From Anaerolineales bacterium (lineage in GTDB: Bacteria > Chloroflexota > Anaerolineae > Anaerolineales > UBA4823): 50,343 bases of DNA. Position numbers and translations under genes: made by a program. The DNA is taken from NCBI GenBank assembly GCA_020061105.1, contig JAGUYW010000043.1, positions 1 to 50,343 on the forward strand, read 5' to 3'. Each line of letters starts with the position of its first letter. Within the stretch, counting starts at the first letter, position 1. Under the pieces are notes generated by a model. That model had not been told where the DNA came from. It saw nothing but the letters and a program-made list of their open reading frames with translations, and searched no databases. Shown here piece after piece: positions 14,294-30,628 of the stretch.

Positions 14294-15379
14294 ATGGCCT
14301 CCTACGGCACACCACTCTCGAAACGAATTTTTGACCTGCTTCTCGGCCTGGTCGCCTTGATCTTGCTCTCTCCGGTGATGCTGGTTATTGCGCTGCTGGT
14401 GCGGATCAAACTCGGTGCGCCGGTGCTCTTTCGCCATACTCGCCCGGGTTACAAAGGCAAGCCCTTTACATTATATAAATTCCGCAGCATGACCGACACT
14501 CGCAATGTCGACGGAAAATTATTGCCCGATACCCAACGTTTGACCAGGTTCGGGCGCCTTTTACGTTCTACCAGCCTGGATGAACTGCCCGAACTATTCA
14601 ATGTCCTGCGTGGCGAGATGAGCATCGTTGGGCCGCGCCCGCTGCTGATGCATTACCTGGATCTCTATACTCCTGAACAAGCCCGCCGCCATGATGTGCT
14701 GCCCGGTATCACCGGTTGGGCGCAGATCAATGGGCGCAACGCCTTGACCTGGGAGGAAAAATTCCAGCTGGATGTCTGGTATGTCGATCACTGGAGCTTG
14801 TGGTTAGACATCAAAATCATCGCCCAGACGGTATGGAAGGTCGTGCGGCGAGAGGGTATCAGCCAGCCCGGTCACGCTACCGCCAAGGAGTTCACAGGCA
14901 GCGCCCAGCCCGACCCACGCCCGGCGCGCTTCTGGAACGAATTTTTGCAGCACAACCTGCACCTGCCAGCCGATACACTATACCAGGCATGGAGCTTTGG
15001 TGATAACCCGCAGCTGGCCGATGAACTTATTACCCTGGTACTGGTGGGTAAAAAGACCGCCACCGCCAGCCTGGTTTGGGAATATGAAGCAGATGGCGAA
15101 GCGCTGCCGCAGGTAGGCGCTTACAGCGTGATCACCAATTCTAGCGGCGAGCCGCGCTGCATCATACAAACCAGCGAAGTACGCATCCTGCCCTTCGACG
15201 AAGTAGACGCCCCATTCGCCGCCGATGAGGGCGAGGGCGACCTGAGCCTGGAATACTGGCGCCAGGCGCACTGGCGCTTCTTTGGGCGCTCCTGCGCCCG
15301 GATCGGCCGCCAACCCGACAAAAAAATGCCGGTGGTATGCGAGCGGTTTCGAGTAATTTATAGGCAAAACATATTGTAG
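14294..15379 (+). CDS. Phosphoglycosyl transferase (WcaJ/PglC type) fused to ASCH domain
   Basis: 361 residues in one open frame. Residues 1-205 form a complete monotopic phosphoglycosyl transferase that loads a sugar phosphate onto a polyprenyl phosphate carrier. The parts are the membrane hairpin at 11-38, the FRSMTD loop, the catalytic D96-E97 in [18 protein letters not shown] and [12 protein letters not shown]. Its usual C-terminus (GISQPGHA, then EFTG) is intact. A short linker leads to a complete ASCH domain (about 211-357: [36 protein letters not shown]). ASCH domains are PUA-like and are thought to bind RNA or nucleotides. I do not recognise this pairing as usual. Confidence 0.88.
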
Positions 15380-21580: not shown

Positions 21581-21631
21581 TGCCCAAGATTGGTTCCTGT
21601 CTTGGATGTTGCCGCGCCTGATTTTCTACTT

Positions 21632-23617
21632 ATGAATCCCCCTTCCTCTGCCGATCTTTACCGGATGCTCTATCTGATGCGCCGTTTTGACGAAACGGTG
21701 CTGGAGAACTTTGCCTCCGGTGTCTTCTTCGGCACGACTCACACTTATCTCGGGCAAGAGGCCAACGCTGCTGGCATACTCAGCCATCTTCAGGTTGGCG
21801 ACATCGTCTTCAGTAACCATCGCTGCCACGGGCACTTCCTGGCTTACGGCGGCGACCCACGCGCCTTATTCGCCGAACTGATGGGGCGTTCGACCGGGGT
21901 GTGCAGCGGGCGCGGCGGTTCGCAACACTTGCATTGGAAGAATTTTTATTCCAACGGCGTGCAAGGCGGCATTACGCCCATCGCGAGTGGAATCGCGCTG
22001 GCAGAGAAACGCAAATCCGGCGATCTCCCGCCCGACCAGCGTCCGGTGGCAATCGCTTTCCTGGGCGATGGCACGCTGGGCGAAGGCGTCGTTTACGAAG
22101 CGCTCAACCTGGCTGCCCTTTGGCAGGCGCCGGTATTGTTTGTGTTGGAAAACAATCACATCGCCCAAACCACACCAACCCACCAGGCTATTGCCGGCAA
22201 CATGGCGGCGCGCTTTAAGGCCTTCGGTATTCCAACTTATGAAATTGACAGCAGCGATGTACTGGAAATTCTGCCGGTCGCCGGGCGATTGCTCAGCGAA
22301 GTTCGCCAACAACAAGCGCCGCGCGCCTTGATCTTACACACCTGCCGTTTCGGTCCACATTCCAAGGGCGACGATACCCGCCCGCAAGCCGAAATCGACA
22401 CGCTGCGCCAGCAGCGTGATCCGCTGGCAATCCACGCACCCCGCCTGGCGCCAGCCGAACGCACGGCCATCGAAGCCCAGATAGACGAAACCATCCAACG
22501 TGCTTACCAGCAGGCCTTGCAAGACCCATTTCCAACCTTTTCGCGTTTGAACGTTTACACGTTTGAACGTTTACACGTTACAGAATCCCAACGATCTTCC
22601 GCCACCGTCCTTGAGTCCATCAATGCCGCCTTGCACAGCGCCCTGGCTGATGACCCTGCCGTGTTGCTGCTCGGCGAGGATTTGCTCGATCCATACGGCG
22701 GGGCTTTCAAGGTCTGCCGCGGCCTTTCCAGCGCCTTCCCGGGGCGAGTGTTGAGTACGCCTATCTCAGAAGCCGGCTTTACCGGGTTGGCGACCGGCAT
22801 GGCGCTACGCGGTCTGCGCCCAGTGGTCGAGATCATGTTTGGCGATTTTGTCGCCCTGATCGCCGACCAGGTGATCAACCACGCTGCCAAGTTTCGTTGG
22901 ATGTACAACGAACAGGTGAATGTTCCGTTAGTCATCCGCGCCCCCATGGGCGGGCGGCGCGGTTACGGGCCTACCCACAGCCAAAGCCTGGAAAAACACT
23001 TCCTGGGCGTCCCTGGCCTATCTGTACTGGCGCCGACCGCCCTGGGTGATCCCGGCGCGCTGCTCTACCAGGCCATTCGTAACACCCAAGATCCGGTGTT
23101 GTTCATCGAAAATAAGCTGCTCTACTTGCAACGTTTACATACCCCGCAAAGCCTGGCAGAGTTCGAAATTCGCCAATCTTACCCCCAGGCTGTGCCTTTT
23201 GCGCCCACCTATCATCTCTTGCTGCAAGACGCCCCGCCGCCAACCCTGACCCTGGCAGCGTACGGGTACATGGCCGAATTGGCTATGCAAGCAGCGCTGA
23301 AACTGGCTTATGAATTCGAAGTTTTCTGCGAACTGGTGATCCCGACACAGCTTGCGCCTTTCGAGTTAGACCCGATCATCGACTCAGCTAAGCGCACCCA
23401 ACGCCTGGTAACCATCGAGGAAGGTACGATGAGCCTGGGTTGGGGCGCCGAGACCCTGGCGCAAACCGCCCAGGCGCTGGGTGCAGGCTTGCTGGCTGCC
23501 CGGCGCGTTGCAGCGTTGGATATCCCCGTCCCCGCCAGCGGCCCTCTGGAAGCAGCAATGCTGCCGGAAGTTGAACAGATTATAAGAGTCTGTCAGGAAG
23601 TTGCCCTCAAAGGGTAG
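21632..23617 (+). CDS. 2-oxoacid dehydrogenase E1, fused alpha and beta subunits
   Basis: 661 residues. Thiamine-diphosphate enzyme that decarboxylates a 2-oxoacid and normally passes the acyl group to lipoyl-lysine. The alpha part (about 6-300) has NHRCHGHFLAYGGDP, GRGGSQH and the ThDP motif FLGDGTLGEGVVYEA, ending near ENNHIAQTT. The beta part (about 323-661) has LLLGEDLLDPYGGAF, TPISEAGFTGLATGMAL and APMGGRRGYGPTHSQ. Both halves look intact. The linker is encoded by a 16-base tandem repeat. An in-frame TTG at 21590 would add 14 residues. The substrate (pyruvate, branched-chain or other) cannot be told. No E3 gene is in the window; the nearest lipoyl protein is at 24982. Confidence 0.9.
   Translation: MNPPSSADLYRMLYLMRRFDETVLENFASGVFFGTTHTYLGQEANAAGILSHLQVGDIVFSNHRCHGHFLAYGGDPRALFAELMGRSTGVCSGRGGSQHLHWKNFYSNGVQGGITPIASGIALAEKRKSGDLPPDQRPVAIAFLGDGTLGEGVVYEALNLAALWQAPVLFVLENNHIAQTTPTHQAIAGNMAARFKAFGIPTYEIDSSDVLEILPVAGRLLSEVRQQQAPRALILHTCRFGPHSKGDDTRPQAEIDTLRQQRDPLAIHAPRLAPAERTAIEAQIDETIQRAYQQALQDPFPTFSRLNVYTFERLHVTESQRSSATVLESINAALHSALADDPAVLLLGEDLLDPYGGAFKVCRGLSSAFPGRVLSTPISEAGFTGLATGMALRGLRPVVEIMFGDFVALIADQVINHAAKFRWMYNEQVNVPLVIRAPMGGRRGYGPTHSQSLEKHFLGVPGLSVLAPTALGDPGALLYQAIRNTQDPVLFIENKLLYLQRLHTPQSLAEFEIRQSYPQAVPFAPTYHLLLQDAPPPTLTLAAYGYMAELAMQAALKLAYEFEVFCELVIPTQLAPFELDPIIDSAKRTQRLVTIEEGTMSLGWGAETLAQTAQALGAGLLAARRVAALDIPVPASGPLEAAMLPEVEQIIRVCQEVALKG
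22545..22576 (+). repeat. Two tandem copies of a 16-base unit in the E1 linker
   Basis: The unit gtttgaacgtttacac occurs at 22545-22560 and again at 22561-22576, followed by the partial match gtta. Sixteen is not a multiple of three, so the two copies are read in different frames, and copy number decides whether the alpha and beta parts are in frame. Confidence 0.95.
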
Positions 23618-23671: not shown

Positions 23672-24952
23672 ATGAACAACCCTTCTAAACCCAACCAACC
23701 CCAACTGTTTCACTGCCCGACCTGCGGCGCCAGCCTGCCCAACCCGGAAACCGCCACTGTGCGCTGCCAGTATTGCGGCAGCACCGTTGTGGCGCCGCCC
23801 GAAATGCTTCCCAAGAAGGAGAGCCCACGCCCAGCGAATGTCTTCCGGGTAGATGACGCCCCGGTGGTCATCCATACCGAAGTGTTTACCAACACCACCC
23901 GCAAAAAAGAACCCTTCGGCGCGGTCAATATGATCGGCCTGGTGATAGGCTTGCTGGTTGCCTGTGGTGTCCTGGTGGCCTTGGGCATCGGATTATTTAC
24001 AGCTTTCTCGGCTTCTACAACAGCAAGCAGTGTGATCATTCAGACCGAAGTGGTCCAGCCGACCGACCGTCCGACCGCCACGCCAACCCCACAGCCCAGC
24101 CCTACGCCAATCCCACCCATCAACCTGGTATTGCAATTTGGCGGCGAGGGCGTCGGCCCGGGCATGTTTGACGACCCACGCAGCATTGCCGTCGACATGG
24201 AGGGCTATATCTTTGTCGCGGATTACAACACCGGACGCTTGCAAAAATTCGACTCGAGTGGAAAGTTCCTCCAACTGATCAAGCTTGACCCCCCCTCCAA
24301 CAATTCCGACCTGATCTTCGACCTGGCAACGGATTATTTAGGCTACCTGTATGTTGCCCGCGGCGCTGACATCCTGGTGATTGACGGTCGCGACGGCAGC
24401 CTGGTCAACACCATCGACTTTCAATCCACCCGCCGCTTGTTCCGAAAAATTGCTATCGATCCGAGCAACCTGATTTACGCAGTGGTTGGCGGCTCTACGC
24501 CAACTGACAACCTGATTCAGATGAGCCTGGATGGGCAGATCGCCTGGGAAAACGAGGGATTTCTCTACAACCGAGACCCCAAAAGGCCTGGGAGACCCGA
24601 GGTGTTGGTAGTTGACGGTTTAGGAACGACATTTGTTCTCGACACAACCAATAAGCGCATTTACAAATTCAACCCACAAGGCCAGTTTGTAGACCAGTTT
24701 GGTGAAGGCGGTAATCAAGAAAACCAATTACTCGTCCCGACCGGGTTGGCAATCGATCCAAAAGGGCGCCTGTATGTCGGCGATTCCCGAATGATCAAGG
24801 TTTTTAGCAGCACCGGCAGCTTTATTCGGGCAGTTGAATTCGCCAACGAATTGGGTGGGATTAGAGATTTGACCATCGATCTGCAGGGTAAGTTATACGC
24901 AGTGACCAATCGGAATCTGGTTTTAGTTTTCGAAGTCAGGTTAGACGAATAA
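23672..24952 (+). CDS. Zinc-ribbon, single-pass membrane protein with NHL-type propeller
   Basis: 426 residues. An N-terminal zinc ribbon (HCPTCG, then RCQYCGSTVV, about 13-38) is followed by one membrane helix (about 90-115) and a Pro/Thr spacer (PTATPTPQPSPTPIPP). The C-terminal beta-propeller of NHL-like repeats (about 150-420) shows units such as DDPRSIAVDMEGYIFVADYN and PTGLAIDPKGRLYVGDS. The ribbon should be cytosolic and the propeller outside. Propellers of this kind bind protein or glycan; no catalytic motif is visible. ATG 23672 follows AGGAA. It lies 54 bases after E1 and 29 before the lipoyl chimera. The function is unknown. Confidence 0.83.
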   Translation: MNNPSKPNQPQLFHCPTCGASLPNPETATVRCQYCGSTVVAPPEMLPKKESPRPANVFRVDDAPVVIHTEVFTNTTRKKEPFGAVNMIGLVIGLLVACGVLVALGIGLFTAFSASTTASSVIIQTEVVQPTDRPTATPTPQPSPTPIPPINLVLQFGGEGVGPGMFDDPRSIAVDMEGYIFVADYNTGRLQKFDSSGKFLQLIKLDPPSNNSDLIFDLATDYLGYLYVARGADILVIDGRDGSLVNTIDFQSTRRLFRKIAIDPSNLIYAVVGGSTPTDNLIQMSLDGQIAWENEGFLYNRDPKRPGRPEVLVVDGLGTTFVLDTTNKRIYKFNPQGQFVDQFGEGGNQENQLLVPTGLAIDPKGRLYVGDSRMIKVFSSTGSFIRAVEFANELGGIRDLTIDLQGKLYAVTNRNLVLVFEVRLDE

Positions 24953-24981: not shown

Positions 24982-26118
24982 ATGTCCAAAGCCATTCTAA
25001 TTCCCTTACTCAATCCTAATGAGACCGAAGCGCTCATCGCCGGGCTGCACATTCAAGAAGGCCAGCAGGTCGCAGCCGGCGAAATCCTGTGCACCCTGGA
25101 GACTACAAAATCGACTGCGGACTTGCCGGCTGAACAGGATGGATACGTAATCGGGCTACGCTTTGCCGAAGGCGATACTGCTTCTGCTGGCGAGTTATTA
25201 TGCTACCTGGCGGAAAGCGCCGAGTGGCAGCCTCCTGCAGCGCCAGCGACAACCACGCCCACTCAAGACGCCCCACTACAAGCCGCTGCTCCTCCAGGGT
25301 TGCGCATCACCCGCCCCGCCCTGGAGATGGCGCAGCAGGCCGGCCTGGATTTGGCCAGCCTGCCTCAAGATCGCCTGTTGACTGAAAGTTTCGTGCGCGA
25401 CTGGATCGCCCAAAACAGTGGCGCAATGGCCTTGCAACCGCCCACCAGCGCTTTCGATGCAAGCGCGGTTGTGGTTTATGGCGGCGGCGGACACGGCAAA
25501 GCGGTCATCGACTTGCTGCGCGCCCTGGGGGTATACCGCGTGATCGGAATTTTGGATGACGGGATTGAGATAGGCGAGACCATCATGGGCGTTCCTGTCC
25601 TGGGTGGAGCAGAAGCGCTGCCCGAATTATTCGCCCAAGGGGTGCGCCTGGCAATTAACGCCGTCGGTGGGATTGGTAACATCGCCATCCGCATCAAAGT
25701 GTTCGAAAACCTGGCGGCGACCGGTTTTGTCTGCCCGGCGATCATTCACCCCAGCGCAGTCGTCGAACCCAGCGCGGTTCTGGCGCCAGGTGTGCAGGTC
25801 TTTGCTCAGGCTTATGTCGGCAGCGAAGCCCAGCTAGGCTTTGGCTGCATCGTCAACACCGGCGCCATCGTCTCGCACGATTGTCGCCTGGGTGATTACG
25901 CCAATATCTCGCCGGGTGCAATTCTGGCTGGCGAAGTGCAGGTCGGCGCCGCCGCCCTGGTGGGCATGAGCGCGACGATCAACTTGAGAGTAAGCATCGG
26001 AAATTACGCCCGCATCGGCAATAGCGCCACAGTCATTCGCGATGTACCCGAGAAGGGCGTGGTGCGCGCCGGGCAAACTCATCCCAGCCGGCCTACACCG
26101 GCATCATCGCAAGAATAA
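24982..26118 (+). CDS. Lipoyl domain + E1/E3-binding domain + NeuD-type acyltransferase chimera
   Basis: 378 residues. Residues 1-80 are a lipoyl domain with the modifiable lysine K43 in LETTKST. An Ala/Pro/Thr linker (81-105) leads to a peripheral-subunit-binding domain (about 106-142, RITRPALEMAQQAGLDLASL). So far this is the front of a 2-oxoacid dehydrogenase E2. From 160 on it is instead a NeuD/PglD-like sugar acyltransferase. That part has a nucleotide-type motif VVYGGGGHGKAVIDLL, then a left-handed beta-helix of hexapeptides with catalytic H299 in VSHDCRLGDY. NeuD-type enzymes normally acylate amino sugars from acyl-CoA. The acyl donor here may be the lipoyl arm (inference). The domain reading itself is firm. 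Confidence 0.88.
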   Translation: MSKAILIPLLNPNETEALIAGLHIQEGQQVAAGEILCTLETTKSTADLPAEQDGYVIGLRFAEGDTASAGELLCYLAESAEWQPPAAPATTTPTQDAPLQAAAPPGLRITRPALEMAQQAGLDLASLPQDRLLTESFVRDWIAQNSGAMALQPPTSAFDASAVVVYGGGGHGKAVIDLLRALGVYRVIGILDDGIEIGETIMGVPVLGGAEALPELFAQGVRLAINAVGGIGNIAIRIKVFENLAATGFVCPAIIHPSAVVEPSAVLAPGVQVFAQAYVGSEAQLGFGCIVNTGAIVSHDCRLGDYANISPGAILAGEVQVGAAALVGMSATINLRVSIGNYARIGNSATVIRDVPEKGVVRAGQTHPSRPTPASSQE

Positions 26119-26132
26119 ACCAAGGAGCAACC

Positions 26133-27311
26133 TTGAGCAAATATTCTATCCCAATGTCTTCTCCAGACCTGACCGAGGCCGAGCGCCAGGCCGTAGCAGC
26201 GGTCTTGCGCACTCCTCACCTGAGCATGGGAACAGAAATCCATGCCTTCGAACAGACTTTCCGTGAATTAACTGGCTTGCCTCACGCCATTGGCGTCAAC
26301 TCTGGCACCGCCGGGCTGCACCTGTGCGTGCATGCCGCTGGGGTGGGTGAAGGCGACCTGGCGCTTACCACCCCCTTTTCTTTTGTTGCTTCGACCAATG
26401 TGTTATTGTTCGAGCGCGCCACCCCAGTTTTTGTGGATGCCGATCCTCAAAGTGGCAATATCGACCCGCAGCACTTGAGACAGGCGGCGGCTGACTTAAC
26501 GGCTGGCGGCAGCGCTGCCCAACGCTGGTTGCCGCGACGCGGCGCGCCTCAAGATGGGCGCTTGAAAGCTTTGCTGCCGGTAGATGTCTTTGGCCAGCCG
26601 GCCGATATGGACGAAATCTGCGCAGTCGCCCGGCAGTATGATCTAAAAGTAATCGAAGATTCGTGTGAGGCCTTGGGAGCAGAATACAAGGGTCGTCCGG
26701 CTGGAACTTTGGGCGATTATGGGGTGTTTGCTTTTTATCCCAACAAACAGATCACCACCGCCGAGGGCGGCGTGATTGTCACCGGCGACGACCAAGCAGC
26801 GGCGCTGATGCTCGCCCTGCGCAACCAGGGCCGCGCGCCAGGCGATACCTGGCTGCAACACACGCATCTGGGCTACAACTACCGGCTGGATGAATTAAGC
26901 GCCGCGCTAGGAAGAGTGCAGATGGGACGCCTGGACGAAATGATCGAGAGGCGCACCCGGGTCGCTGCCTGGTATGAACAACGCCTGATCCATCTACCCG
27001 GCGTCGAGGCGCCTATCATCCAACCCACAACCACCCGCATGAGTTGGTTCGTCTATGTTGTGCGGTTCAACCCCGATCTCAATCGCGACCGTATCGCTCA
27101 ACATTTGGAAGCGCGCGGCATCCCTGCCCGTCCTTATTTTATCCCTATCCATTTGCAACCTTACATGGTGCAACGGTTCGGATATCGGGAGGGCGATTTT
27201 CCGGTCACAGAAGATCTTGGACGGCGCGGCCTGGCGCTGCCATTTTCGAGCGTAATGAGTGAAGCTCAAGTGGATATTGTGTGCCAGGCGCTGAAAGAGA
27301 GTTTCGCCTGA
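26133..27311 (+). CDS. DegT/DnrJ/EryC1-family aminotransferase
   Basis: 392-residue PLP enzyme of the family that aminates keto-sugars on nucleotide carriers. Visible signs are NSGTAGLHLCVHAAGVGEGD, VDVFGQPADMDEICAVA, the aspartate segment IEDSCEALGAEYKG and the PLP lysine K205 in FYPNKQITTAEGG. A stretch at about 125-147 is longer than in most relatives. The start is TTG 26133 with AAGGAG five bases upstream. It follows the lipoyl-NeuD chimera by 14 bases, matching the common pairing of a DegT aminotransferase and a NeuD-type N-acyltransferase acting in sequence on one sugar. Confidence 0.9.
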   Translation: MSKYSIPMSSPDLTEAERQAVAAVLRTPHLSMGTEIHAFEQTFRELTGLPHAIGVNSGTAGLHLCVHAAGVGEGDLALTTPFSFVASTNVLLFERATPVFVDADPQSGNIDPQHLRQAAADLTAGGSAAQRWLPRRGAPQDGRLKALLPVDVFGQPADMDEICAVARQYDLKVIEDSCEALGAEYKGRPAGTLGDYGVFAFYPNKQITTAEGGVIVTGDDQAAALMLALRNQGRAPGDTWLQHTHLGYNYRLDELSAALGRVQMGRLDEMIERRTRVAAWYEQRLIHLPGVEAPIIQPTTTRMSWFVYVVRFNPDLNRDRIAQHLEARGIPARPYFIPIHLQPYMVQRFGYREGDFPVTEDLGRRGLALPFSSVMSEAQVDIVCQALKESFA

Positions 27312-27330: not shown

Positions 27331-28476
27331 TTGACAATCCAATCACCCAGCTTTGGTTTTCCCCGCATGCGCCATGAAGCTGGTGAGCGCAGAGATTTTT
27401 TGCCCGAAACCATCGCCTTGTTGGACAGGCTCGGGGCAAAAATTTTTCTGGAACACGATTATGGCGTTGGCATGGGGTTTAGCAAAGAATATTACCAGGC
27501 AGTTGCTCCCAACGTACAATTTGTCTCCCATGAAGAGGCTTACAGGCAAGCCTTTGTGCTCGTCTTGCGTTGCCCCGCCGAAGAAGAATTGCGCTTGCTG
27601 CGCCCCAGCGCCTGTCTGTTATCGATGCTGCATTACCCTACCCGGCCGCAGCGCACCGAATTTATTCGCTCCTTAGGGATCGAAGCCATCTCGCTCGACT
27701 CGCTAAAAGATGATGTCGGCAGACGGTTGGTGGAAAACCTGCGCGCCGTGGCCTGGAATGGCCTGGAAGTTGCCTTCCGCACCCTGCGCACAATCTACCC
27801 CCATCCTGGTTTTGAAAGCCCGCATCGCGATTCGATTCATGCCACGCTTTTGGGCACGGGAGCGGTCGGTGTACATGTCTTGCAAGCTGCCATTCGCTAT
27901 GGCGATCTCAACCTATGGAAAGAGATGATCGAACGCCAGACGCCAGGAGTACAAGTTACCGCTGTGGATTACGATCTGACAGGCCGCCAGGATAAAATGC
28001 TGCCCATCCTGGAAAAAACCGATCTACTGATCGACGCTACACAGCGCCTGGATCCCAGCCGGCCGGTTATCCCGAACGAATGGATCGCCGTCATGCCGAA
28101 ACATGCCGTATTGCTCGACCTGTCGGTTGATCCGTATATTTGCGACGAATCGGCGCCCTCGGTGAAAGGCATCGAAGGCATCCCACAAGGCAACCTGGAC
28201 CAGTATGTCTTTGCCCCTGACGATCCGGCATATGACAGTATTCCTGAGTGTTTTCCAAAAGCCAACCGTCGCTATGCCATATCATGCTATTCCTGGCCTG
28301 GCATTCATCCAAAAGCATGTATGAGCATCTATGGGCAACAACTGCGCCCAATCTTACGGGTGTTGTTTGAAAAAGGGCTGCCTTCTGAAAACGGTTCCGA
28401 CCAACGCCCTGCTATCCGTGGGAAATTCTTCGAACGCGCCATCCAACGCGCCTTGCTTTCGCGCTGGCAACCGTAA
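27331..28476 (+). CDS. Alanine-dehydrogenase-like oxidoreductase, first paralogue
   Basis: 381 residues of the alanine dehydrogenase / N5-(carboxyethyl)ornithine synthase / saccharopine-type superfamily. There is an N-terminal substrate domain, then the NAD(P) motif LLGTGAVGVHVL (about 174-185). A histidine (H101 in SMLHYPTRP) and an aspartate (D267 in DLSVDPY) match the catalytic pair of alanine dehydrogenase. The active-site lysine of that enzyme appears to be arginine (R80 in VLRCP). The reaction could be reductive amination of a 2-oxoacid or reductive joining of an amine to one. TTG 27331 has AAAGGAG nine bases upstream. It is a clear paralogue of the next gene. Confidence 0.78.
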   Translation: MTIQSPSFGFPRMRHEAGERRDFLPETIALLDRLGAKIFLEHDYGVGMGFSKEYYQAVAPNVQFVSHEEAYRQAFVLVLRCPAEEELRLLRPSACLLSMLHYPTRPQRTEFIRSLGIEAISLDSLKDDVGRRLVENLRAVAWNGLEVAFRTLRTIYPHPGFESPHRDSIHATLLGTGAVGVHVLQAAIRYGDLNLWKEMIERQTPGVQVTAVDYDLTGRQDKMLPILEKTDLLIDATQRLDPSRPVIPNEWIAVMPKHAVLLDLSVDPYICDESAPSVKGIEGIPQGNLDQYVFAPDDPAYDSIPECFPKANRRYAISCYSWPGIHPKACMSIYGQQLRPILRVLFEKGLPSENGSDQRPAIRGKFFERAIQRALLSRWQP

Positions 28477-28495
28477 AAAACAAAAGAGAAGAATA

Positions 28496-29608
28496 ATGAA
28501 AAAACAAATCACGATTGGCTTTCCCAGAATGAAGAATGAGTCTGGCGAAAAACGCGTCTATTTACCGGAGTTCATCCAGTTCCTGGCAGATCAGGGCGCT
28601 CATATTTATCTCGAAGAAGGTTATGGCTCTCGCTCTGGGTATACCTTTGACGATTACCGCGCCGGTAGTCTGGCAATCCACCAATGCAATCGCAACCAGG
28701 CATTCCAGCAAGACTATGTGATCGTACTGCGCTCGCCGCGGCTGGACGAATTTCATTTGCTGGGTGAAAATTCGTGCCTGATCTCGATGTTGCATTACCC
28801 CACCCGTCCGAAGCGTGTCGCGTTACTCAAAGAATTAAAGCGCCGGGCTATCTCCATGGATAGCATTGTCGATGATCGCAACATTCGCCTGGTAGAAGAT
28901 ATGCGCGCCGTGGCCTGGAACGGACTGGACACAGCCTTTGGCATCCTCGAGCAACGCTGGCCTAACCTGGAGCGCGGCGATGGCGAGCCGCTGCGAACAT
29001 TAATTATTGGCACCGGCATGGTTGGTAAGCACGCCGTCGAAGCAGCGACCAAGCTGGGCAACATCGAACGCAACAACGATCACATTGCCGCAGGCGGGCC
29101 TGGGTCGCTGGCCATCTCAGTCGGGCGCAGCATTTCGGCCAACCCAACCATCATGGAAAAGCTCATTCGCCAGGCCGATATTTTGGTCGATTCCGCCTAC
29201 CGGCGAGATTCTTCCAAACCGGTTGTCCCCAATGATTGGATCGCCTGGCTTCCCGAACACGCCGTGGTTGTCGACCTCTCCGTGGATCCTTACACGATGG
29301 ATGTCGACACGCCGGTGGTGCGCGGTATCGAAGGTATTCCACAAGGCAACCTGAACCAATATATCTTCCATCCTGATGATCCGAACTGGGAAAAAACCAT
29401 CCCATCCGACATCCCCACCGCCAACCGCCGCCCAACCGTGACCTGTTACTCCTGGCCTGGCATCCACCCCGAGGCTAGTATGCTACATTACGCTGCCCAG
29501 CTAGAGCCGCTGATGCAGGCCTTGCTGAGCACCGGCTACGACGGACTGTCGGCTGATGGCGACTATTTCGAGCGCGCTCTATACCGGGCAGCGCTCAAAG
29601 CCTGGTAA
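28496..29608 (+). CDS. Alanine-dehydrogenase-like oxidoreductase, second paralogue
   Basis: 370 residues, collinear with the gene just upstream. Shared blocks include SMLHYPTRP, RAVAWNGL, GIEGIPQGNL and CYSWPGIHP. The NAD(P) motif is IIGTGMVGKHAVEA (about 171-184). H100 and the DLSVDPY aspartate are kept and R79 replaces the usual lysine. The frame is open to 28331 inside the previous gene; ATG 28496, giving MKKQITIGFPRMKNESGE, aligns with the paralogue's start and is chosen. The pair may be a heteromer or may act on two related substrates. The gap before the prenyltransferase gene is 24 bases. Confidence 0.78.
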   Translation: MKKQITIGFPRMKNESGEKRVYLPEFIQFLADQGAHIYLEEGYGSRSGYTFDDYRAGSLAIHQCNRNQAFQQDYVIVLRSPRLDEFHLLGENSCLISMLHYPTRPKRVALLKELKRRAISMDSIVDDRNIRLVEDMRAVAWNGLDTAFGILEQRWPNLERGDGEPLRTLIIGTGMVGKHAVEAATKLGNIERNNDHIAAGGPGSLAISVGRSISANPTIMEKLIRQADILVDSAYRRDSSKPVVPNDWIAWLPEHAVVVDLSVDPYTMDVDTPVVRGIEGIPQGNLNQYIFHPDDPNWEKTIPSDIPTANRRPTVTCYSWPGIHPEASMLHYAAQLEPLMQALLSTGYDGLSADGDYFERALYRAALKAW

Positions 29609-29632: not shown

Positions 29633-30628
29633 ATGAACCCTCAAATGTGGTTAAAAGCCTTACGAATCATTCCTCACGTAAATAAAGAGGAATGGCAACA
29701 ACTCGATCTGATCTCAAAATGGCTGATCTCCACCCGCGCCGCGGTGTTGATTATGACGTTTATCTCAGCAGCAATCGCCGGCATCCTGGCATTCCAGGAT
29801 GGTAAATTCAACCTGTTGTACTGGGTCCTGGTAGCACTCGGCCTGGTGCTGGCGCACGCTACCAATAACCTGCTCAATGACATGACCGATTTCGCCAGGG
29901 GCGTAGATCAAGATAATTATTACCGCAGCCAATACGGCCCACAACCGCTGGTACACGGCCTGATGAACAAGCGTCAGATGTTCACCTACGCTGCCGTCAC
30001 CGGGCTATTTGCACTGGCTGCCGGGCTGCTCCTGATCTGGCTGCGCGGTGGTTGGACAGCCCTCTTTCTCGGCCTGGGAGTTTTCTTCGTGCTTTTCTAT
30101 ACCTGGCCTTTGAAATACATTGCCTTAGGCGAGATCGCCGTCCTGGTGGTATGGGGGCCCCTGATGATCGGCGGCGGTTATTATGTGATTGCGGGCGCGT
30201 GGGATTGGAATGTGGTGATTGCCAGCCTGCCCTACGCCCTGGGCGTCACTGGGGTGATTTTTGGCAAACACATTGATAAATGCGAGATGGATCGCGCTAA
30301 GCGCATCTTTACTCTACCTGTCTTACTGGGTGAGAAAGCTTCCCGCTTTGCAGTGCTGGGCATGCTGATCCTACAATACCTGGCAGTGGTTTACCTGGTG
30401 ATCAGCGGCTTTTTCAGTTGGATTATGCTGGTGGTCTTCCTGGCGCTGCGGGCTTTCAGGCGCATTTTTCCAATGTTTTTGGCGCCCAAACCGGACGAAA
30501 AGCCAGCCGATTTCCCGGATGTATGGCCGAATTATTTCGTGGCGGCGGCCTTCTTCCACAACCGTGAGTTCGGCCTGTGGTTCATGCTGGGGTTAATCAT
30601 CAATGCCGCTCTGAAAGTCTGGGCGTAA
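29633..30628 (+). CDS. UbiA-family prenyltransferase
   Basis: 331-residue integral membrane protein with about nine helices. The first Asp-rich site NDMTDFARGVD binds the magnesium-diphosphate of a prenyl donor. The second conserved segment, KHIDKCEMDRAKRIFTLPVLLG, sits where other members have their second Asp-rich site. It would join a prenyl chain to an acceptor, as in menaquinone (MenA) or ubiquinone synthesis. The acceptor is unknown and no other quinone gene is nearby. ATG 29633 has GAGG upstream. It is last in the run and followed by a terminator. Confidence 0.87.
   Translation: MNPQMWLKALRIIPHVNKEEWQQLDLISKWLISTRAAVLIMTFISAAIAGILAFQDGKFNLLYWVLVALGLVLAHATNNLLNDMTDFARGVDQDNYYRSQYGPQPLVHGLMNKRQMFTYAAVTGLFALAAGLLLIWLRGGWTALFLGLGVFFVLFYTWPLKYIALGEIAVLVVWGPLMIGGGYYVIAGAWDWNVVIASLPYALGVTGVIFGKHIDKCEMDRAKRIFTLPVLLGEKASRFAVLGMLILQYLAVVYLVISGFFSWIMLVVFLALRAFRRIFPMFLAPKPDEKPADFPDVWPNYFVAAAFFHNREFGLWFMLGLIINAALKVWA

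Follow-up and report, generated by a model that had tools for sequence, protein, structure and literature searches.

2-Oxoacid dehydrogenase complexes are the textbook producers of acyl-CoA. Their E2 dihydrolipoyl acyltransferases carry a lipoyl domain, a subunit-binding domain and a C-terminal acyltransferase core of the chloramphenicol-acetyltransferase-type fold (PF00198), and have an E1 as partner. The NeuD/PglD/PerB/VioB enzymes (TIGR03570; PerB 4ea7, PglD 3bsy, Pcryo_0637 7l7y) are composed of a nucleotide-sugar-binding PglD_N domain and a left-handed beta-helix, with a catalytic His, an Asp pair and an aminotransferase gene as neighbor. Characterized NeuD/PglD enzymes take their acyl group from acyl-CoA (PMC8040287). 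Two further systems use carrier arms in ways that are relevant here. LpxA is a beta-helix acyltransferase that receives its acyl group from the carrier protein ACP (PMC6408518); LpxA and LpxD are both left-handed beta-helix UDP-sugar acyltransferases supplied by a phosphopantetheine arm on a separate protein, the ACP, and involve no E1. In the QncN/QncL system, a lipoyl domain carries a glycolyl unit to an ACP (PMC6335953). QncN/QncL/QncM and the homologous scl genes provide an example of a thiamine diphosphate (ThDP)-dependent E1 that loads a lipoyl arm for an acceptor other than CoA, starting from a ketose phosphate and employing an E2-like acyltransferase (PMC6335953).

Here, we describe a gene that unites features of these systems. 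It is located in a 50,343-nucleotide stretch of DNA from an Anaerolineales bacterium (Chloroflexota), henceforth termed the window, and encodes a protein that we call lipoyl-NeuD. The protein shares with NeuD/PglD/PerB/VioB enzymes the domain pair, the catalytic His, the Asp pair and the adjacent aminotransferase gene, but adds an N-terminal lipoyl arm, a likely subunit-binding segment and a near-constant E1 neighbor, and in the main family of homologs the G-x-P-A tail motif is replaced. With E2 proteins it has in common the lipoyl domain, a putative subunit-binding domain, the C-terminal position of the acyltransferase and the E1 partner gene, whereas its core is of the NeuD type rather than PF00198 and its acceptor is probably an amino sugar instead of CoA. 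The best explanation of these data is probably a 2-oxoacid-dehydrogenase-type complex with a UDP-amino sugar as acyl acceptor. QncN/QncL is the nearest precedent, and none was found for the lipoyl-NeuD route itself: a search of the open-access literature returned no paper on a NeuD-lipoyl protein or on lipoyl-to-amine transfer.

The lipoyl-NeuD open reading frame comprises 378 amino acids at positions 24982-26118 of the forward strand, as the preliminary description had placed it. Residues 1-80 (25221 being the last nucleotide, from 24982, + strand) form the lipoyl domain, with a Pfam Biotin_lipoyl match at residues 13-76 (E 7.8e-12), AlphaFold pLDDT values mostly above 90 and Foldseek matches of the front part to the lipoyl domains 3crk and 1y8n. 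The predicted lipoylation site is K43 within ETTKS (codon 25108-25110), which is conserved in all 74 homologs covering that position among 75 aligned proteins. PglD_N follows at residues 163-244 (25468-25713, +; Pfam E 1.8e-13), and residues 252-362 (25735-26067, +) constitute the left-handed beta-helix acyltransferase domain, identified by TIGR03570 and by the PerB, PglB and PglD structures, which were the best structural matches in Foldseek and sequence comparisons. Residues 163-362 score 177.9 bits against the NCBIfam model TIGR03570 (NeuD/PglB/VioB), above its cut-off of 160.8 bits, and Pfam Hexapep matches residues 283-317 (E 1.1e-11). The AlphaFold model is confident for the lipoyl, linker-helix and PglD_N parts and less so for the beta-helix, as expected for a trimer modeled as a monomer. 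By alignment, H299 (codon 25876-25878, within NTGAIVSHDC) corresponds to H141 of PerB, the perosamine N-acetyltransferase of Caulobacter, whose H141N and H141A mutant structures are 4eaa and 4eab. H299 is thus the predicted catalytic base of the NeuD domain; it is kept in 74 of 75 aligned homologs, and G317 (codon 25930-25932) is likewise conserved in the beta-helix domain. Pfam found no PF00198 catalytic core in the protein. Judged by sequence, lipoyl-NeuD is a NeuD-family protein by profile and E2-like by its front half and its partner, and is not an E2 by its core. The preliminary description had assigned a lipoyl domain with K43 and a NeuD-type acyltransferase with H299. Both assignments are borne out by Pfam, TIGR03570, alignment and conservation, and the domain search and structure prediction it had proposed as checks recovered both parts with Pfam, NCBIfam, AlphaFold and Foldseek.

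The acceptor is suggested by the D192-D193 pair of PglD_N (25555-25560), which is invariant in 36 of 36 homologs. Since the matching Asp pair of Pcryo_0637 touches uridine (PMC8040287), a UDP-sugar is the likely acceptor of lipoyl-NeuD.

Between the lipoyl and PglD_N domains, residues 104-147 (25291-25422, +) resemble a subunit-binding domain and share the motif LRITxPALxLA...LxxLPxxxLVTExxVR. In the preliminary description, this region was called a subunit-binding domain. Among 35 homologous segments, 11 give a weak match to Pfam E3_binding (best E 2.1e-4), although the window's own protein stays below the Pfam thresholds. When residues 103-149 were modeled separately with AlphaFold, two helices resulted, and the ten best PDB matches of this model in Foldseek all contain an E2/E3BP peripheral subunit-binding domain (PSBD), with TM scores of 0.45-0.71 and weak E-values of 0.17-5.5. 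The segment is likely a shortened, diverged PSBD.

Upstream on the same strand lies a gene for a fused E1 alpha-beta 2-oxoacid dehydrogenase (21632-23617, +). The E1 cited at 21632 in the preliminary description is genuine, as seen from Pfam matches to E1_dh (6.2e-50), Transket_pyr (1.3e-31) and Transketolase_C (7.5e-17). Its open reading frame as listed begins with a TTG at 21590, and the ATG at 21632 is the more likely start. The solved chains closest to this E1 are pyruvate dehydrogenase (PDH) E1s, which makes a pyruvate-derived acetyl the default guess for the acyl group. We also considered reading the E1 substrate directly from the sequence; PDH E1 chains are closest, yet this does not fix acyl specificity. 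The E1 gene further bears on the cofactor. Pfam does not distinguish biotinyl from lipoyl domains, so that K43 could carry biotin in place of lipoate and the domain serve carboxyl transfer. Biotinyl domains have the motif MKM, whereas K43 sits in ETTK (ETDK in the separate locus L172), the best matches on the lipoyl side are E2 proteins, and the neighboring gene encodes an E1 and no carboxylase, all of which leaves a biotin function barely credible.

Downstream of lipoyl-NeuD, a DegT/DnrJ/EryC1/StrS aminotransferase is encoded at 26133-27311 (+; Pfam 2.7e-107). Its best NCBIfam models are PseC and the LegC-family aminotransferase, both under their equivalog cut-offs, and it is presumed to make the amino sugar. 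An initiating sugar-phosphate transferase of the Bac_transf family (14294-15379, +; Pfam 3.6e-67) is encoded 6 kb upstream and probably consumes the sugar, a link that we infer. We take the set of DegT, Bac_transf and lipoyl-NeuD genes to recall the PglC, PglD and PglE steps of bacillosamine-type sugars. No acyl carrier protein gene was found among the neighboring genes scanned with Pfam. The Bac_transf protein carries a C-terminal ASCH domain in the same open reading frame, which is an odd combination.

Dozens of Anaerolineales metagenome-assembled genomes (MAGs) encode full-length homologs with 46-65% identity. Among plasmid records, none covers 80% of the query for the full lipoyl-NeuD architecture. 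In a tblastn survey of 80 loci, upstream sequence was available for 78, and 76 of these have E1 (alpha and beta) on the same strand no more than 3 kb upstream. The gap between the E1 and lipoyl-NeuD genes is usually below 100 bp, with a median of 14.5 bp where open reading frames were callable. This recurrence in dozens of genomes, together with the upstream E1, rules out a chance fusion or an assembly error. DegT aminotransferase genes are found near the pair in 32 of 75 homologous loci, Bac_transf genes, assigned from one representative, in 35, and either of the two in 51. From the sequence data, E1, the lipoyl arm and the NeuD domain are very probably functionally coupled.

Loss of the lipoyl lysine and of E1 go together. 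Four NeuD relatives without an intact lipoyl lysine (L133, L136, L137 and L138) have no E1 nearby. In L133, ETTK is replaced by ESRR and the binding domain is lost; in L137, the lipoyl domain is degenerate; and in L136 and L138 it is absent, while NeuD is kept throughout. A bactofilin-like gene adjoins NeuD in all four. This common neighbor suggests one lineage decaying stepwise, and the joint losses may therefore represent a single event. The genome harboring L138, G257, is a single contig that is 99% complete; it lacks a PF00198 core and lipA (lipoate synthase), and its E1_dh matches are only weak. Presumably, relatives without the lipoyl part use some other donor. Of the loci that keep K43 and have ample sequence upstream, only L061 lacks E1, and its H299 is replaced by Q.

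These patterns bear on whether the protein is an ordinary acetyl-CoA-dependent NeuD whose lipoyl domain is accessory or regulatory, with E1 serving another reaction. Such an arrangement would be compatible with the complete NeuD domain and with the persistence of relatives that have neither the lipoyl part nor E1. It is nonetheless improbable, given that K43 is kept in 74 of 74 proteins, that E1 adjoins in 76 of 78 loci, that lysine, binding domain and E1 were lost jointly, and that the pairing of E1 with lipoyl-NeuD was formed twice.

The second formation is seen in L172, from the genome G491 (99% complete) of another Chloroflexota class. An E1 alpha tree groups the NeuD-linked E1s, among them the distant L139 from another order and L135 from an Acidimicrobiia MAG, in one clade with support of 100/99, while the E1 of L172 sits apart, among canonical E1s. 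Based on this placement, the pairing appears to have arisen twice independently. The L172 gene row encodes a UDP-GlcNAc-3-dehydrogenase-like protein, lipoyl-NeuD, E1 alpha, E1 beta, DegT, a chain-length protein and a glycosyltransferase. Its lipoyl-NeuD has a classical ETDK site, retains a C-terminal GVPAK and contains no recognizable PSBD. That such a pairing came about twice, in one case among the genes of a plain amino-sugar operon, would be difficult to account for if E1 did not supply the N-acyltransferase. The lipoyl-NeuD encoded in L171 (genome G616) shares about 69% identity with its L172 counterpart and likewise has a Gfo/Idh neighbor; no E1 was found on the 7.4-kb contig of L171.

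Three genomes encode the pair without a recognizable canonical E2. G011 (97% complete), G056 (94%) and G330 (94%) contain E1 and lipoyl-NeuD, and a search for the PF00198 core gave no match in any of them, with completeness ranging from 94 to 97% and none at 100%. The sole E1_dh match in G330 is the gene beside lipoyl-NeuD; that in G056 lies at a contig end and falls inside the NeuD-linked E1 clade. Both genomes also encode E3 and lipA. As far as their sequences, each 94% complete, allow a judgment, lipoyl-NeuD is the only recognizable E2-like partner of E1 in G056 and G330. Most lipoyl-NeuD carriers encode canonical E2s as well, so the missing alternative acceptor applies to these three genomes only. 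One might ask whether the protein is instead an atypical E2 in which NeuD has replaced PF00198, supplying acyl-CoA to general metabolism and having no role in sugar synthesis; its position as the sole E2-like protein for the sole E1 in G056 and G330 would fit. We consider this very improbable in view of the Asp pair that is invariant at the nucleotide-sugar site, the aminotransferase and sugar-transferase genes among the neighbors, and the location of L172 in an amino-sugar operon. With the 76 of 78 neighborhoods, the joint loss, the genomes lacking an E2 core and the second pairing, the notion of an E2 with a swapped catalytic domain and the link to E1, both put forward in the preliminary description, gain good comparative support. 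As a separate observation, G044 (92% complete) has an intact lipoyl-NeuD and E1, yet no lipA over the cut-off; lipoate may be scavenged, or lipA may be missing from the assembly.

Whether CoA takes part is addressed by the C-terminal tail (26050-26115, +; VPEKGVVRAGQTHP...), which has the family consensus VRAGxxWP. In a motif census, the G-x-P-A motif, a customary NeuD feature that is not a curated requirement of TIGR03570, occurs in 23 of 24 stand-alone NeuDs of the phylum and in none of the 75 main-family lipoyl-NeuDs. In Pcryo_0637, a conserved proline near the C-terminus turns cis upon CoA binding (PMC8040287); it would presumably be the proline of G-x-P-A. The absence of this motif from the main family could point away from CoA use. 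As a marker of lipoyl use, however, AGxxWP is weakened, being kept by lipoyl-less relatives while L172 has GVPAK, and the tail motif is therefore suggestive only.

The data could also be reconciled with a channeled but CoA-dependent route, in which the acyl group passes from E1 to K43, then via NeuD or a canonical E2 to CoA, and finally to the sugar. Acyl-CoA is, after all, the donor of characterized NeuD/PglD enzymes (PMC8040287), most carriers have canonical E2 cores, and L172 pairs with E1 yet keeps GVPAK, so that CoA use is possible in that locus. The lack of a PF00198 core in G011, G056 and G330, the loss of G-x-P-A from the main family, and the joining of lipoyl arm and N-acyltransferase in one chain argue against such a detour, which we regard as unlikely.

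Direct transfer from the lipoyl arm to an amine without CoA, as proposed in the preliminary description, is the likeliest reading, and a probable one. E1 and lipoyl-NeuD would then work as the two components of one machine that acylates a UDP-amino sugar. E1 with thiamine diphosphate would decarboxylate a 2-oxo acid, by default guess pyruvate, and reductively acylate the lipoyl group on K43, and the subunit-binding-like segment would keep E1 or E3 near the lipoyl arm. The arm would swing to the active site of the trimeric beta-helix, where, with H299 as general base, a UDP-sugar with a 4-amino (or 3-amino) group, the product of DegT, would attack the acyl-S-lipoyl thioester to yield an N-acyl sugar. 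An E3 encoded elsewhere in the genome would re-oxidize the dihydrolipoyl group on K43. The sequences themselves show the domain layout, the pairing of the genes, their shared conservation and loss, and genes for E3 and, in most cases, lipoate synthase; that K43 is lipoylated, that E1 binds, that transfer is direct, and which acyl group and sugar are involved is inferred.

With slightly less confidence, we favor the wider view that these proteins represent a CoA-independent class of 2-oxoacid dehydrogenase complexes that has at least two origins, in which a nucleotide amino sugar aminolyzes the acyl-lipoyl group on the same polypeptide, and which possibly serves acyl groups lacking a convenient CoA ester. 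If true, the chemistry of lipoate would extend to a conserved branch of these complexes that puts its acyl group into an amide bond and dispenses with CoA, and in Chloroflexota central carbon metabolism would be tied directly to the synthesis of cell-surface sugars. Bacterial glycans might then bear N-acyl groups that the CoA pool does not predict. In such genomes, the annotation "pyruvate dehydrogenase E1" can mislead, since the sole E1 found in two genomes is of the NeuD-linked type.

Several further genes surround the pair in the window. An NHL-repeat beta-propeller protein is encoded between E1 and lipoyl-NeuD (23672-24952), a position in which only a few close relatives have such a gene. 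Two adjacent genes for AlaDH/PNT_N-domain proteins (27331-28476 and 28331-29608), paired likewise in L031, both score far under the NCBIfam cut-offs for alanine dehydrogenase and PntA. Further downstream, a UbiA-family prenyltransferase is encoded at 29633-30628 and is found in 18 of 75 homologous loci.
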